A DNA stretch of 64,000 bases from assembly GCA_003116975.1 (NCBI GenBank), contig BGKB01000106.1, positions 124,001 through 188,000 on the forward strand. Direction: 5' to 3'. Source of the stretch: Aurantiochytrium sp. KH105 (Eukaryota; Sar; Bigyra; Thraustochytrida; Thraustochytriidae). Below are positions 52,794-60,852 of this stretch, piece by piece (within the stretch, counting starts at the first letter, position 1; the number at the start of each line of letters is the position of its first letter). The notes below the pieces were generated by a model. It did not search any database, had not been told where the DNA came from, and saw only the letters and a list, made by a program, of their open reading frames with translations. Position numbers and translations under genes: made by a program.

Positions 52794-55700
52794 ATGGGCA
52801 CAGGCGCGAGCTCGCAGCGCAAGGCGCTTGCAAAGGGAGCGTTGCCCGCCGAGCAAGAACGCAAGGTCCAAGACCTACTGGTCGCGCGGCGCGAGCGCGA
52901 CACCGATGTTCTCTTCTTGGCCGTGGGCTACGCCAGCACCTCGAGCGAGCAGACCAAGCTGAACAAGGGCAAGAGCCTCGTGGTCGTGAACTGCTACCGC
53001 GTCTATCTGTTCAGAGGGTCCTGGACGACAAAGTTTAAAGTCACATGGAGCGTCCCCGTGGTCCATATTGCGAAAATTGCCATCCTTGGCGATAGTGATG
53101 GCGATGGTGCAAAGGGATCCAAAAAGGTAGACGCCTTTCGCGTACGCCTCACACTCATCAATGGCAGCTCGCAAGACCTCCTTGTGAGCGACCCAGAAGG
53201 CTTTGCTCGATCCGTGCAAACGGCGCACGCCATGGCTTCGTATGGCGTGCCTTGGGCCTTTGTCATGCCCCCTCAGCTGGAATCGCCCAGACCCATCATT
53301 CCTGGGGCCATCCCCGTAATTGATGTTCCTCCTTTCCTCGCGCTCTTTCGCATTTACGCCAATATAATTTCTGGAAGCGGCGTCTTGGCGCAACAAGTCC
53401 TCGATGCTGGCGCCACCCCAATTACCACTCCCGACGACGGCCTCGGGCCGATTTCGATGCGCCTGTCTCCCACCGAGCGTCTGGGCGGCGACACAGCATG
53501 GCAGCCCGCTACCGCCGTGGTGATTCAGGCGCTCACCGCTCTATCCCTGGCGGCCACCTATGACGCATCTGTGAAGAAGGTGAGCCTGAACGGTCTTGAC
53601 GATGCGCTGCTGAAGCAGAACCCAGACTTTAGACTTGCCATTTGGGAGCTCCTGCGCTGGAATGTTGGTATCGAAGCGCTCGAGCTTTGCCAAATAGAAT
53701 GCGAACCCGCATTCTGGTCAGTTCTCTCGCAGGCTCTCCTCGCAAACCCACGGCCGAGCATGGGTGTGCATTTCATGCTCGATCGCTGCAACGTCGACTC
53801 GAGCTCCGGCCTTGCACTTGCCATGCAACGCGCATATTACTTTGCCTCCCCGCTTTCGCTGCGTGTGCACCAGTTTCTAAAGGCAGGCCAGGAGAATGTG
53901 GACCCAAATGGCGAGGGAGCAAGCTGGATCTTTGAGATTTTCAACGGTGACTATCTTCCCTCACTCGACGCCACGCGTCCGCTACCGCTTCCATATCTGG
54001 GCATGTTGCAAGAATTGGATCTTACGGGGACTCTCATTCCCGTCGCTAGCTTCGAAGCCGCCAACGCCTCCCTCTCGGGCTGTGCGTCGCTGCGCAAGCT
54101 CGTCCTTGCTGGATCCCTTCAGGAACTCGCCTCGCAGGGCCTCGTGGAAGACCTTCTCAAGGCGCTCCCCGCCAGTCCTCTTGCAACCCTTGACCTGAGC
54201 GACAACAGCAATCTTTTTGCGGTCCCCGGCTCTCGTTTTGTTGATGCTCTTGCCGACTTTGTCTACAACCGCCTCGGCTCGCTGGTCAGTATCGTGTTGA
54301 CGTCAACCAACATTAGCGGCAATGAGCTCCTCGCCCTCTGCAAGGTGCTCTGCGACGACGACCAAGATGCGCTTGCTCTGCGCCGCAAAAAATTCGCAGC
54401 CACGCGCCGTCTGGTTCCTGCCGTGCAGTGGACGCGCGAGCTCATTGCGCAAGCAGCCATCACGCTTTGCGTCGGCTCCAACGAGTCATTGACCAATATT
54501 CTTGAAGCAGAATCAATGCCAAAGCTTCCCATTGGATTTTCGCTCGTTGCGAACAACCTGACCTGGAGTCGACTCGCGCAAAAGTCCATCCTCCAGTCGT
54601 TGCACACTACCGAGAGCGCGACTTTGGACTTCTCCCTCGATGAGGCCAATGCGCAATTCGACCTTCACGTCGTTGCAACGGACTATTCGCATTTGCAGGC
54701 ATTTCCGCACATGGACCCACTTCTCTACCGGGGCGGCGTTTACGCTGCTCAGGCCACTGGCCAACCCTCTGCTGCCCTCCCAGGGGGAATGAGCATCTTT
54801 GCGCTCGCCAGCAACATTGTCGACAGAATTCCGTACTCTATTATCCAGCAAATTGACGTTTGGTCCAGGACTGACATCGAGACGCAAGTCTTGGACAGCG
54901 AGCCAGAGCGTGAGCTCTGCCAACTCGTTGGAGATACGGCTCTATCCTGCGAACACCTATGGAAATTGAGTTTGCGTAACTGGCGTCTAGGACCCATGGC
55001 CTCTGCATTCTTTGAGGAGGGTATCGCACTTAACAAGACACTTCTCTCCCTCGACATTACAGGCAACTACATTGGAGACCGGGGCGCCGAGGCCCTCGGC
55101 CGAGCGCTACGCACCAATCGCACGCTCGTGTCGCTGCACATGGATGACAACCACGTCGGCCTCGATGGCTGGAAGGCCATCCGAGGGGCGCTCTATGGCA
55201 ATCGTAAGATCGCGGAGTTCACGTATCCAGCAAAGGACGTAGCCCGGCGCAACGAACGGCTCAATCAGCAAATTGCTCTTGGCGACGAGATTTACAAGGT
55301 CGGCAAGCTCGATATCAAGAGAACCTATAATTCCTATTCCTTGAAACCGCGAAGCGTCGAGGTCATCAAGTATGGCAAGAAGCTCCGCCGCCATGCTATT
55401 GCGCACGCCCAAAAGATTCAAGATACTCTGGCCCAAATTCTTGCCGCTGTGGCCGACAACGCCAATGGGTGGGGTGACAAATTCGCTCCAAAGCAAGACA
55501 AGCAGCGTGCCAAGGCCCAGGACCGCATCGTCTCCAAGGTCGCACGAAAGCAAGCCAAGCTTCTTGCCAAGATGACCCGCCTTCTGAGCAAGTCCGCCGT
55601 AAAGGGTCGACGCAATAAGCGAAGCAATCCGTACGTACCCTCGGCGATTGATCCTCTGCGCCGCGGCCCCATCCTCTCCACTGATCCCGTCTACGACTAC

Positions 55701-57728
55701 GATGACTACCTGGGTGAGACGTATCCCAACGATGTGAACAGACTGCTTCCCTATCGTTATCGTGGCAGGCGACGTCGCTATATCAATCGTGCACCCTCCC
55801 ACCACGATGGGCACGTGAATGGTGGCAATGATGGCAGGGACAGCGACAGCGACAGCAGCGATGACCACGATGATCATGTCGACCATGTCAACGATAATGA
55901 TCGCGAAAATGAGGGGGGTCGCTCTACGAGTGAGCAACAGGACTCGGGACGAGACCGCGAAGTCGCAACGGCGGAAACAGCCGCGGCCGCCATTCTCGCG
56001 CTCGGCGCGGCCGCATTTCTTGCCGCAAACCTCGACCAGCTGCAAGCCCAGGCAGCGATGCTTGACCCTTCTGTGCAGGCGCAAATGAACGAGCTCATTG
56101 ATGAGGGTCGAGAAACTACCGAGCTGTTGAATGAAAATACTGCCCTGTGGGGCCCCGGAGCTGCCGAGGCGACGGCCGACGCCCTTGATGATGCTGTCGA
56201 TTCACCGGATATGAGTGGACTCGACCTCGATGGAGATGCCGGAGCGGATAATGACGATGACAACGATGATGATGATGACATGGACGATGTCGAAATGTAC
56301 GCTGGGGCTGGGCCGGATCAACGGGATGGTGACTTCCGTGCACCTCCGCGCGCCCCTCGCGTGCTGAGCGGATCACAAGGCCCCATCTTGTATGCAGCGG
56401 CCCGGGGTACAGTCGAATATGCTGTGCAAGGGTCCGATTGCTCGGCCGAGAGAGATCTCGAGCGATTGCGCACCGAGTTCACAGACTGGTTTGCTGAGCA
56501 GGAGCGTCTCTTTGCTCAGGTCGACGCGGACCTCAAGCAGGCATCAGCGCGTGCAAAGGTCGAAGCTTTTTTGAGCCTTGGGCAGTTCTGGAAGACTCCC
56601 TCTTCGTACTCGTCACAAATCTTGTGGACGCCTTCGAGTGAGCAAAGACAGAGTGACCAACGCGACTGGTGTGTGCTTTGCACGCAATTGAGCGCAGACC
56701 GTTGGCCGCGTTTCGAGCGGCTTGCGCGATCTTGGAACGGAGCTCTCAGCGCCGCCGTTTACCTTCCCGACGACAACGACGAGACTGCCATTCCCGTCGC
56801 CGCACGTTTGCGGGCGAGCTGCGCAGCACTCGTCAAGGCACAACCGCGCCTTCGTCTCCACGTGGTCCTTGTCACGCCATCAACCCTTCAAACGTGGTAT
56901 CCCATCAACATGCTGCGCAATGCAGCCCTCATTGGAGCGCGCTCCACGTTTGGGCCTGTTGCCACGCATGTTTTTCTGCTTGATGTCGACTTTATGGTGG
57001 ACCACATGCTTGCGGATCGCCTTCGCGACGACGAGGATCTCCGCACCCATGTGCGCGAGGCACGAAACACGGCCTTTGTCGTTCCGGCGTTTGAGAACGT
57101 CCAGGAAGAACTTCATAAGGGTCCGTTTGCGTGCTTGGACACGAGAGACGTGCGCGCAAGTTTTGCCAATGGACGTACAGCTGGGTTTCACGTGGAGAAC
57201 TTTCCTAAGGGACATGCGCCGACGAACTTTGTTCGCTGGGCCGACGCACAAGAGCACCACTTGCGCATGTCATACGCGGTGAGTTACGAGGATTGCTTTG
57301 AGCCATATGTCATTGTTCGCGTGGAAGACGTTCCCCTTTACGACGAGCGTTTTACTGGCTATGGCATGAACAAGATCAGCCACTTGTTTTCGCTGTCGCG
57401 ACGTGTATCCAGGTTTCGAGTGCTCTTTGACCATTGCGTTGTGGCCGATCCTCACCCGCGCAGCGACGAGTGGGCACGAACATCCTCGACAAGCGATCGT
57501 TTGGCTTATCTCAAGGCACTCTACATTAGTTTCAAGCGCACTGGAGGTCGCAAGATTGTCGTCTCGGCCACCACAACCACCGCCATGGCTCGCTTGGACG
57601 CTGAGCAGCGTAAAAAGACCTGCACCCCTGAAGACTATCCGGAGAATCTGCTGCGTACGGGTCACGAGGCGAGCGACATGCAATCTACCAATGACGCCCC
57701 GTCATGGGTCGCGATGGATCTCAAGTAG
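52794..57728 (+). CDS. PH-like/LRR protein fused to a LARGE-type GT49 domain
   Basis: This is one uninterrupted 1644-codon frame. MGTGASS is a good N-myristoylation signal. Residues about 20-155 look PH-like (RRERDTDVLFLAVGYAS, SLVVVNCYRVYLFRG, DAFRVRLTLINGSSQDLLVSD), and about 280-810 hold leucine-rich repeats of the RNase-inhibitor/CARMIL type (LQELDLTGTLIP, LATLDLSDNSNLF, LLSLDITGNYIGDRGAEALGRAL). Lys-rich coils, a His/Asp-rich acidic linker and an alanine-rich hydrophobic stretch (about 1061-1080) follow. From about 1290 a GT49 domain is clear: YPINMLRNAALIGARSTFG, the DxD in FLLDVDFMVD (Asp1397, Asp1399), FEPYVIVRVEDVPLYDERFTGYGMNKISHLFSL. LARGE/B4GAT1 GT49 domains add glucuronic acid in the Golgi lumen. 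With the 1061-1080 helix as a membrane anchor the LRRs would be cytosolic and the GT49 lumenal. Confidence 0.85.
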   Translation: MGTGASSQRKALAKGALPAEQERKVQDLLVARRERDTDVLFLAVGYASTSSEQTKLNKGKSLVVVNCYRVYLFRGSWTTKFKVTWSVPVVHIAKIAILGDSDGDGAKGSKKVDAFRVRLTLINGSSQDLLVSDPEGFARSVQTAHAMASYGVPWAFVMPPQLESPRPIIPGAIPVIDVPPFLALFRIYANIISGSGVLAQQVLDAGATPITTPDDGLGPISMRLSPTERLGGDTAWQPATAVVIQALTALSLAATYDASVKKVSLNGLDDALLKQNPDFRLAIWELLRWNVGIEALELCQIECEPAFWSVLSQALLANPRPSMGVHFMLDRCNVDSSSGLALAMQRAYYFASPLSLRVHQFLKAGQENVDPNGEGASWIFEIFNGDYLPSLDATRPLPLPYLGMLQELDLTGTLIPVASFEAANASLSGCASLRKLVLAGSLQELASQGLVEDLLKALPASPLATLDLSDNSNLFAVPGSRFVDALADFVYNRLGSLVSIVLTSTNISGNELLALCKVLCDDDQDALALRRKKFAATRRLVPAVQWTRELIAQAAITLCVGSNESLTNILEAESMPKLPIGFSLVANNLTWSRLAQKSILQSLHTTESATLDFSLDEANAQFDLHVVATDYSHLQAFPHMDPLLYRGGVYAAQATGQPSAALPGGMSIFALASNIVDRIPYSIIQQIDVWSRTDIETQVLDSEPERELCQLVGDTALSCEHLWKLSLRNWRLGPMASAFFEEGIALNKTLLSLDITGNYIGDRGAEALGRALRTNRTLVSLHMDDNHVGLDGWKAIRGALYGNRKIAEFTYPAKDVARRNERLNQQIALGDEIYKVGKLDIKRTYNSYSLKPRSVEVIKYGKKLRRHAIAHAQKIQDTLAQILAAVADNANGWGDKFAPKQDKQRAKAQDRIVSKVARKQAKLLAKMTRLLSKSAVKGRRNKRSNPYVPSAIDPLRRGPILSTDPVYDYDDYLGETYPNDVNRLLPYRYRGRRRRYINRAPSHHDGHVNGGNDGRDSDSDSSDDHDDHVDHVNDNDRENEGGRSTSEQQDSGRDREVATAETAAAAILALGAAAFLAANLDQLQAQAAMLDPSVQAQMNELIDEGRETTELLNENTALWGPGAAEATADALDDAVDSPDMSGLDLDGDAGADNDDDNDDDDDMDDVEMYAGAGPDQRDGDFRAPPRAPRVLSGSQGPILYAAARGTVEYAVQGSDCSAERDLERLRTEFTDWFAEQERLFAQVDADLKQASARAKVEAFLSLGQFWKTPSSYSSQILWTPSSEQRQSDQRDWCVLCTQLSADRWPRFERLARSWNGALSAAVYLPDDNDETAIPVAARLRASCAALVKAQPRLRLHVVLVTPSTLQTWYPINMLRNAALIGARSTFGPVATHVFLLDVDFMVDHMLADRLRDDEDLRTHVREARNTAFVVPAFENVQEELHKGPFACLDTRDVRASFANGRTAGFHVENFPKGHAPTNFVRWADAQEHHLRMSYAVSYEDCFEPYVIVRVEDVPLYDERFTGYGMNKISHLFSLSRRVSRFRVLFDHCVVADPHPRSDEWARTSSTSDRLAYLKALYISFKRTGGRKIVVSATTTTAMARLDAEQRKKTCTPEDYPENLLRTGHEASDMQSTNDAPSWVAMDLK

Positions 57729-58039
57729 AAGTTTGATGATAGCTAGGAAGAGAAGAGAGAGAAAAGAGACTGAGTTTGGTTTTCTTTCGCTCGAAGGCCT
57801 GCGACCCCTACATTCTTGAGTTGGCCACAAGAAGACTCAATCGAAAGATTCGCAGCTCCCATTGTGTTCTTCTCCTTTCTTTTCTTTTCTTTTCTTTTTT
57901 CCAAAGCTTTGAAAAAACAAAAAGAAGAAGAAAAAAAACGGATCAATTCCCTTGGGCGTGCTTGCTGTGAGCAGCTTGACGTGCTATTGCTGTGAGCAGC
58001 GAGTGGATCGTAGATTGCAAAGTAGTCGCACGACACACA
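57729..58039. other. Spacer between LRR-GT49 and ankyrin genes
   Basis: A 311-base spacer with a TTTTC pentanucleotide tract at about 57875-57897 followed by an A-rich stretch. Probably the 3' UTR of the first gene and promoter of the second. Confidence 0.5.
57875..57897. repeat. (TTTTC)n pentanucleotide tract
   Basis: Four copies of a 5-bp TTTTC unit in the spacer between two tandem genes. Confidence 0.8.
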
Positions 58040-58813
58040 ATGGACCAGCTCGTGTACCATGCTGTTGCCACGGGCAACCTCGGGCAGGTCCTGGAGCTCG
58101 TAGCGGAGAAAAACTCGTGGAGTTGGACGCCCCGTCACGAAAAGGTCGAAACACAACGCTTGGGCGATGTTGTAGACCTTGGTAAAGGTCATGGTCCCAA
58201 TGAGACGACCTTACTGCACGTATGCAGCGCCAAAAGCCACGTCCGTACCGCCAAGGTTCTGCTTGATATGCTCGCGGGAAGCACAGACGCCGCTACGCGA
58301 CGACGCATTGTCAATAAGCGAGAATGCAGCAAGATTGGTGGGTATACGCCACTTCATTTGGCTTGCCTCAGCAAGTGCACGACCGCCGCAGACATGGCGG
58401 AGCTCTTGATACAGTATGGTGCCGATCCTGACGTAAAGGACGCCAATTGCTCCTTTACGGCACTCCATCTTGCCGTGCGCTCACATGCCTTTGAGGTTGC
58501 TCGAGTGCTTGTGCGTGCTGGCGCCGACTTGTTAGCGCGTGACAAGTTTGGCAACAACCCAGCTTTTTGGCTCAAAGAACTTTACCCCGACGCTACCAGT
58601 TCAATGCGAGACTTGCTTGGTCCGCCGAAATCAGCAAGCATCGAGGAAAAGTTCTTCGCCTTACACCGGGATCGAACGGCACGAGGACTCCCGACAAACA
58701 CTCTACCAGCAGCAAATCCGATGGCTGCACCGCGGTACAAAGCCTTTGTCAAGGCCAAGGGAAAAGGAGGAAAAGCCGGAAGCAAAAAGAAAAAGACGAA
58801 GAAAAAGAAATAA
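58040..58813 (+). CDS. Ankyrin-repeat protein with poly-Lys tail
   Basis: This is a 257-residue soluble protein. It begins with an ankyrin-like helix pair (MDQLVYHAVATGNLGQVLELVAE). Repeats follow at about 53-80 (ETTLLHVCSAKSHVRTAKVLLDML), 96-135 (GGYTPLHLACLSKCTTAADMAELLIQYGADPDVKD) and 136-170 (CSFTALHLAVRSHAFEVARVLVRAGADLLARD), with a partial one after that (KFGNNPAFWL). The tail KGKGGKAGSKKKKTKKKK is strongly basic and could act as a nuclear localisation or RNA-binding segment. The frame is open upstream to a GTG at 57992, but 58040 is the first ATG. The partner is unknown. Confidence 0.88.
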   Translation: MDQLVYHAVATGNLGQVLELVAEKNSWSWTPRHEKVETQRLGDVVDLGKGHGPNETTLLHVCSAKSHVRTAKVLLDMLAGSTDAATRRRIVNKRECSKIGGYTPLHLACLSKCTTAADMAELLIQYGADPDVKDANCSFTALHLAVRSHAFEVARVLVRAGADLLARDKFGNNPAFWLKELYPDATSSMRDLLGPPKSASIEEKFFALHRDRTARGLPTNTLPAANPMAAPRYKAFVKAKGKGGKAGSKKKKTKKKK

Positions 58814-59122: not shown

Positions 59123-60610
59123 TCACGGGTGCTCGTTTGGTTTTCCGGGGCCGTTAAGATCTTTTGCGGCTTCCGCGGCATTTTGCACATCCTCATCAGA
59201 AAGTGAGGCAAAGATGCGCTCGTTCTCCTCGATCGCGGCTGCAGACCAGAGCGAGCGCGGTGGCTGCAGGACGACAAGCTGGCGCTCAAACTTGAGCGCA
59301 AGCGATTGAAGCTCTGTGTAGCGCGAGATGTCAAATCCATTGCGCACGTAGAGCTTGGTGGCCCTTCGCTGGGTAAGGAGTGCCGCGAGTGCCGGATAGG
59401 AATACTCGATCTTGTGATATTGAAAGAAGACAAGTCCGAGGATGGCCGTGCCAAAGGTGATAAAGTAGGTGATGGGTTCCATGACGTCCCAGCCGAAGCG
59501 AGAGAAAAAGGTGAGCTTGGCAATGACGGCCGCTTGGGAAAGAAGATAAAGGAGGCAAACTGTGAGCACGCGCTTGGTGTGGCGCGCAGCCTGGGCGTCG
59601 AGAGGACGTTTCTCACGCTCCATGGAGGCTAGCTCGACAAGCGTGTCGTGGAGTCGCTCCTGTTTGTGTTCAATGACGTCAGCTGTGCGTCCCTCGGGCT
59701 GCAGCGTAAGACGATATCGCATACCATTGATGGAGACGTGCAGGCCCTCATTTTCGTCGGCCATGGCGCTAAATTGCTGGACCGAGAGCGGGATTTCAAC
59801 ATTAAGCGCACTTGGTTCCTGGAACTCGAGACCTGCCTCTGCCAGCGACTTTTTGCGCAAGAAAGCTTCCCATTCCGCGTTGCTGACACGCCCATCGCCA
59901 TCGGTGTCGGCAAGAAGAAACTCTTGAAAATCCATCTCTGATCTGCTTTTCAAATGTGCAAATCGTCTTGAGAAGAGATCGTGTGCGCCGCCGGACTTGT
60001 TCTCCTCGTCCATGCGTTCGAGCATGCGCATGATGCGCAAGCGTGAGTCAAGGCTCAAGCCCTTCTTTTTACGGGCACCATTTTCCTCGAGAAAACGGTC
60101 CTGGATGGACAGGTGAAGGGGCTTTGAGTTGTTGATGCCAAACCTCCCATCCTTGCCCGATTGCGGCGCCGCTGCGTCCGCGGCAGCAGAGGCTACGGAC
60201 GTGGATGTGGCCGGGTCAAATGACGGGGGTGGCGACCCCGAAGTCGTACCTCTCGTCGAAGAAGACGTCGACGACGACGGTGACGGTGGAGATGGAGATG
60301 AAGAGGATGACGAGGAGGATGAGGAGGAAGAGAATGAACGTGCTGTACCGGCAAAAGGCACGCTCTGTTTGTAAGTCTTGCCGTTTCCAGAGACTCGTCT
60401 GCAGCGAAGTTCCTCCCCCTCGCGTCGCGGGCCAACGACTGGCACTTGACGGTCCCTACGCCTACGCTTTCTGCATGCGCCGCCTGCCCTGGCCCCGGGC
60501 CACGCGTCCTCGCTCGCTACGACGACCAGTGCTCGTGCGAGGCTGACAGCCGGCGTTGGCGTTGCTGGGCCCAGCGGCCTCAATGCCGCGCGCGTCCAGG
60601 CGCTCAGCAT
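59123..60610 (-). CDS. MCU: Mitochondrial calcium uniporter (MCU) with an N-terminal EF-hand
   Basis: This is a 495-residue pore subunit of the inner-membrane Ca2+ uniporter. Residues 1-90 are Arg/Ala/Ser-rich, an import presequence (MLSAWTRAALRPLG), and are followed by a poly-Ser/Pro linker. A canonical EF-hand loop lies at 235-246 (DTDGDGRVSNAE, acidic positions 1, 3, 5 and 12 all present). The MCU core runs from about 270: a beta-rich segment, a coiled coil (EHKQERLHDTLVELASMEREKRPLDAQAA), TM1 (about 348-367), the selectivity motif WDVMEP (374-379; WDIMEP in animals) and TM2 (about 382-398), then YSYPALAALLTQRRATKLYVRNGFD. The start at 60610 begins the presequence. A fused EF-hand is unusual; the Ca2+ sensors MICU1/2 are normally separate proteins. 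Confidence 0.92.
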   Translation of the reverse strand: MLSAWTRAALRPLGPATPTPAVSLARALVVVASEDAWPGARAGGACRKRRRRDRQVPVVGPRREGEELRCRRVSGNGKTYKQSVPFAGTARSFSSSSSSSSSSSSPSPPSPSSSTSSSTRGTTSGSPPPSFDPATSTSVASAAADAAAPQSGKDGRFGINNSKPLHLSIQDRFLEENGARKKKGLSLDSRLRIMRMLERMDEENKSGGAHDLFSRRFAHLKSRSEMDFQEFLLADTDGDGRVSNAEWEAFLRKKSLAEAGLEFQEPSALNVEIPLSVQQFSAMADENEGLHVSINGMRYRLTLQPEGRTADVIEHKQERLHDTLVELASMEREKRPLDAQAARHTKRVLTVCLLYLLSQAAVIAKLTFFSRFGWDVMEPITYFITFGTAILGLVFFQYHKIEYSYPALAALLTQRRATKLYVRNGFDISRYTELQSLALKFERQLVVLQPPRSLWSAAAIEENERIFASLSDEDVQNAAEAAKDLNGPGKPNEHP

Positions 60611-60665
60611 GTCTGTTCTCCGCGGGCGGGCGCCTGCCGCACGCGCTCCGCGGCACCCAGAGCCG

Positions 60666-60666
60666 T

Positions 60667-60696
<30 letters not shown>
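60666..60696. repeat. (CTGC)n tetranucleotide microsatellite
   Basis: Seven to eight copies of CTGC immediately upstream (on the minus strand) of the MCU start. Confidence 0.9.
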
Positions 60697-60697
<1 letters not shown>

Positions 60698-60852
60698 CCT
60701 GTCTGCAGGCGTGCTGCGCGGGTCCTCGCGAGCCTCGCGCTGCGGCGCCCCGCTGCACACGCGCGCGCAGGGAGTTGGTTATTGCTTGCTTTCGCGCTTT
60801 CTTTCTTTCTTTCTTTCAAGTTGGGCCCCGGGAAACAAGGCGAGCGAAGGAG

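Follow-up and report, generated by a model that had tools for sequence, protein, structure and literature searches.

In Aurantiochytrium sp. KH105, one reading frame joins an LRR half to a GT49 glycosyltransferase domain. The window, the whole 64,000-nucleotide stretch of DNA that was analysed, is contig C106:124001-188000, part of a 76-Mb assembly. Its positions 52794-57728 (+) form an uninterrupted ORF from ATG to stop, with 1644 codons and a product of 1644 aa, and this ATG is the first ATG/GTG/TTG past an in-frame stop located 15 codons upstream. Pfam matched both PF13896 Glyco_transf_49 (1.6e-37) and LRR_6 (9.4e-07) in this same 1644-aa frame. No stop of the kind considered in the preliminary description lies between the LRR and GT49 halves, and the frame is unbroken to 57728. 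The 1644-codon frame is real and very probably encodes one protein. LRRs and GT49 are both known; their combination is genuine, and this combination, together with its possible topology, is the new part.

A second copy of the fusion is present on the minus strand of contig C115, with the same start, stop and domain order and a length of 1643 aa. At the DNA level the two copies share 97.6% identity, with a single indel, of 3 bp, over 4.9 kb, and they lie within a collinear match of C106 and C115 that extends over ~16 kb at 95% identity. The flanks, 1500 bases on each side, contain 19 and 7 indels between the copies (26 in 3 kb). The flank rate predicts 43 indels for the frame and 11 for residues 861-1290, and 1 and 0 were seen; at the lower rate of the downstream flank, the probability of zero indels in the linker is 0.002. 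The dN/dS of the frame, copy against copy, is 0.31 overall. Residues 171-860 (dN/dS 0.23, P 1.7e-5) and 1291-1644 (dN/dS 0.27, P 1.4e-4) are under significant purifying selection. The linker alone does not reach significance (residues 861-1180, P 0.08), and dN/dS is 0.93 in residues 1181-1290, just ahead of the GT49 domain. An assembly misjoin was rejected because C115 has the same fusion inside this collinear stretch of ~16 kb. With the second copy intact, 1 indel set against 26 in the flanks and a dN/dS of 0.31, neither a misjoin nor a broken gene is likely. Both the intact second copy and the constraint on the coding sequence thus support the joining of LRRs and GT49 in one 1644-codon frame, as first described.

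Silent divergence in the fusion gene between the copies is ~5%. Many matches of the genome searches pair up on two contigs, numerous LRR matches among them, and the GT49 frames found form three pairs. Therefore, the assembly probably represents two haplotypes, or a homeologous or duplicated genome.

In all 17 of 17 blocks of 52794-57728, the codon score is higher in frame than in any of the other five frames, with a training set of nine other long ORFs in the window, mostly putative genes. The codon usage of the fusion frame runs on through residues 1080-1280 (56031-56633, +), a linker or stem that is acidic and of low complexity. We infer a single transcript for the fusion frame, with splicing possible. 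In the linker (residues 860-1290), 28 formal GT-AG intron candidates begin, of which 11 keep the frame (e.g. residues 1046-1063 and 1046-1231), and some of the frame-keeping candidates would excise residues 1062-1078. These candidates, together with a conserved Met at 927, would allow an internal transcript start or splicing to yield a separate GT49 product, with the fusion seldom made. However, no Met between 927 and 1089 is common to both copies, the coding signal continues unbroken through the linker, and the linker is free of indels between the copies. Production of two such products is quite improbable.

The protein begins with the candidate N-myristoylation signal MGTGASSQRK (52794-52823, +), which is identical in both copies, as is the hydrophobic segment 1062-1078. 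Read by eye, the MGTGASS start fits the N-myristoylation motif, with Met-Gly at the beginning and Ser at position 6. This agrees with the signal reported in the preliminary description, and its pattern indicates that the N-terminus is probably myristoylated. The PH-like region placed after this signal, about residues 27-150 (52872-53243, +), is unsupported. Residues 1-170 match zero Pfam families at E<=10, Carm_PH included, and residues 1-700 match zero solved-structure (PDB) sequences at E<=10. When searched against the whole genome, residues 1-700 match only themselves and the sibling copy, and the Carm_PH profile finds no match in the whole genome, in a search whose controls gave no match either. 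The predicted structure of residues 1-1000, made from 2 sequences, has a mean pLDDT of 31.8. Its strands at 38-131 and the subsequent helix resemble a PH fold, a resemblance that was discounted because model confidence is too low.

The LRR region spans residues 247-820 (53532-55253, +), and its repeats are clearest at 405-471 and 722-808. LRR_6 matches residues 747-768 with 28.9 bits in the whole protein, against a cut-off of 23.4, and with 38.1 bits when the segment is searched alone. Residues 171-860 contain six strict LRR motifs, compared with a shuffle mean of 0.82, and six were reached in 0 of 2000 shuffles; residues 1-170 and 1081-1644 contain zero. The LRR domain claimed earlier is confirmed by the Pfam match above cut-off and by the motif count. 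Its assignment to the CARMIL type found no such support. A total of 36 PDB sequences match the LRR half at E<=0.1, the best at 5.1e-15 and with the best stretches inside residues 669-831, and the two CARMIL chains rank only 21 and 22 among them. CARMIL/LRRC16A resembles the fusion in its RNase-inhibitor-type LRRs, with a weak match confined to residues 723-818, but the fusion has no detectable Carm_PH and carries an attached GT49 domain. At the level of sequence, the CARMIL-type label lacks specificity and is not supported. The LRR region is followed by a basic segment, residues 857-942 (55362-55619, +), which is possibly helical according to the helices of the low-confidence model.

The GT49 catalytic domain occupies about residues 1291-1600 (56664-57593, +). 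The PF13896 match scores 130 bits (cut-off 27), with its best stretch at residues 1367-1547, which upholds the GT49 domain that had been proposed. Among PDB sequences, residues 1151-1644 match LARGE1 best (2.3e-28 over 1288-1587); LARGE is a gene family linked to muscular dystrophy. The GT8 xylosyltransferase domain, which precedes GT49 in LARGE, was not found in the 1644 aa (Pfam, E<=1). The DxD motif is present where it had been located, as D1397-V-D1399 (56982-56990, +), and aligns with LARGE1 D563/D565. H1554 (57453-57455, +) aligns with LARGE1 His708 and is invariant across the six GT49 sequences of the genome. LARGE2 and B4GAT1, like LARGE1 GT49 glucuronyltransferases of the Golgi, share the GT49 domain, DxD and the equivalent of His708 with the fusion. 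The fusion resembles LARGE1 in these features and differs from it at the H705 position, where it has Ala1551. According to PMC9746966, LARGE1 H708 seems to be involved in manganese binding, and the comparison with K4CP made there suggests that H705 would be the usual metal-binding His. Elsewhere in the genome, the H705 position holds His in the C32/C195 pair and Asp in the C178/C74 pair. The two LARGE1 Cys of the aligned region are not kept in the fusion, which speaks against the type II reading given below. The predicted structure of residues 1040-1644, made from 6 sequences, has a mean pLDDT of 38.2.

Ala1551, and the dN/dS near 1 directly ahead of the domain, would fit a GT49 domain that is catalytically altered or inactive and is used as a binding module. 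The retention of DxD, H1554, FEPYV and GYG-NK argues against this, as does that of KGHAPTNF, though the second copy reads KGHGPTNF. The purifying selection on residues 1291-1644 noted above is a further argument, and the C178/C74 pair likewise has no His at the H705 position. An altered or inactive enzyme is improbable, and catalytic activity, predicted from these residues, is likely, not assured.

The candidate type II signal anchor is the hydrophobic segment 1062-1078 (55977-56027, +), TAAAAILALGAAAFLAA, which is the best hydrophobic window of the whole protein with a score of -0.84 on an insertion scale. It was compared in a table of 50 frames, in which several rows are one gene repeated and several are clipped by the locus end. 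Among the other GT49 frames, presumed anchors have scores of -1.90 to -1.61 (L005/L006) and -0.02 to 0.65 (L003/L004), and a mitochondrial calcium uniporter frame scores -1.40. All 11 rows of putatively soluble LRR frames (L015, L018-L024, L029-L031), of which 7 are clipped by the locus and L015 and L030 are one gene, score at least 1.70. The segment thus falls between the presumed anchors of its GT49 sisters and apart from the LRR-frame rows. Frames of unclear reality score similarly low, with two window frames at -0.71 and -0.69, and two doubtful frames lie at or below the segment score (L045 958-5109 (-), -0.91; L016 1564-3189, -4.39). Shuffles of residues 1001-1280 reached the score in 0 of 300 cases with windows of 17 and 19, and whole-protein shuffles in 5 of 40 with windows of 17.

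With 17-19 residues and an Ala-rich composition, the segment is a marginal anchor candidate, and more than 1000 residues ahead of a first anchor is unusual. It stands between a cytosolic-type half and a stem-like low-complexity stretch. This placement matches Golgi type II enzymes, and the type II anchor was counted as more credible for this reason. LARGE1 is one such enzyme, according to PMC9746966. The anchor proposed at 1061-1080 in the preliminary description gains some support: the best hydrophobic segment is there with an anchor-like score, but it is marginal and equalled by 5 of 40 whole-protein shuffles. A type II anchor at 1062-1078 is thus plausible and somewhat likelier than a soluble helix.

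A soluble Ala-rich helix at 1062-1078 would instead belong to a wholly cytosolic, myristoyl-tethered protein, in which the LRR half selects the protein substrate of GT49; in OGT, TPRs choose the substrates. This arrangement is the main alternative and is possible, though doubtful. The segment scores like the presumed anchors of the organism's own genome, and each of the four further GT49 frames found there has an anchor-like hydrophobic segment ahead of the domain, both of which oppose it. The experimentally known GT49 enzymes, which are lumenal, speak against it too. LARGE1 is among them, as described in PMC9746966. On the other side, the N-terminal myristoylation motif is present, and the segment is short and Ala-rich. 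Residues 1081-1644 contain 0 N-glycosylation sequons against 2.0 expected, with a 10% chance of none, which also favours a cytosolic protein. Glycosylation in the cytoplasm is common among protists, and AgtA has a WD40 domain that binds Skp1 and acts on it (PMC8724618). If the protein were entirely cytosolic, a GT49 enzyme would have been relocated to the cytosol, which would represent a new protein-glycosylation route.

The preferred reading, tentative and at just under even chances, is a type II fusion of the secretory membrane with the LRR half cytosolic and GT49 lumenal, in which the LRRs would place the enzyme or control it. For topology, activity, acceptor and LRR role, we infer the following. 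One gene would yield one large N-myristoylated protein with an LRR binding surface on its cytosolic half. The LRR half would be followed by the basic segment, the short anchor 1062-1078, the acidic stem and GT49. As a type II protein of the Golgi or another secretory membrane, it would turn its LRRs to the cytosol and its GT49 domain to the lumen. GT49 might then extend a glycan on a scale, cell-wall or surface glycoprotein, and the LRR half may bind a cytosolic partner and thereby place or regulate the transferase. More specifically, the very large LRR half might act like a receptor whose ligand in the cytosol, for instance a protein of the cytoskeleton or of trafficking, controls from that side of the membrane where or when the lumenal GT49 extends a surface glycan; this more specific reading is rather unlikely. 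Golgi glycosyltransferases normally expose just a short tail to the cytosol. If the type II reading is true, ~1060 cytosolic residues with protein-binding repeats would be a direct link from the cytosolic state to glycan synthesis.

The fusion differs from LARGE1, LARGE2 and B4GAT1 in carrying ~1060 LRR-containing residues ahead of the anchor candidate. Dictyostelium AgtA, a cytosolic protein with GT77 and WD40 domains, resembles it in combining a glycosyltransferase with a protein-binding repeat domain (PMC8724618). In contrast, the fusion has another GT family, another repeat and a possible membrane anchor. No description of an LRR-GT49 fusion was found in the literature searched, which covered few subscription journals. 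Brown algae are reported to have GT49 (PMC11468063), and a paper on a cryptomonad genome includes the family in one of its tables (PMC6260743). Among viral and prokaryotic DNA collections, which are uninformative for other protists, no relatives from outside the genome were confirmed.

A second kind of GT49 fusion occurs in the same genome in two copies, L005 (C178, 187-3582) and L006 (C74, 10-2934). In one frame, L005 has a presumed N-terminal anchor, GT49 and Stealth CR1-CR4; Pfam was run on L005 only, and CR4 is under the cut-off and CR3 at the cut-off. This domain order suggests that the GT49-Stealth fusion may be a bifunctional phosphoglycan-making enzyme. It is similar to the LRR fusion in having GT49 within a multidomain protein, and it differs in its presumed N-terminal anchor, its Stealth sugar-phosphate transferase module and the absence of an LRR match.

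Immediately 3' of the LRR-GT49 gene, an ankyrin-repeat protein is encoded at window positions 57992-58813 (+). The window frame at 59123-60760 (-) encodes a mitochondrial calcium uniporter (PF04678, 1.7e-31), and ahead of that domain it has an EF-hand match below threshold. Elsewhere in the assembly, PUFA-synthase-like frames are found on opposite strands at C72:305786-314912 and C155:166452-175544. Positions 6-1035 of a PfaA-type profile match C72/C155 with 930 bits, and positions 1759-2567 match C290/C61 with 456 bits, both under the whole-protein cut-off; the profile also matches 11 of 14 control genomes below the cut-off. These matches fit the labyrinthulomycete origin assumed in the preliminary description but are no proof of it. 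The PfaA parts of C290 and C61 span profile positions from 1287-1313 to 2567. The opposite-strand matches on C72/C155 resemble the divergent PUFA-synthase genes of thraustochytrids.
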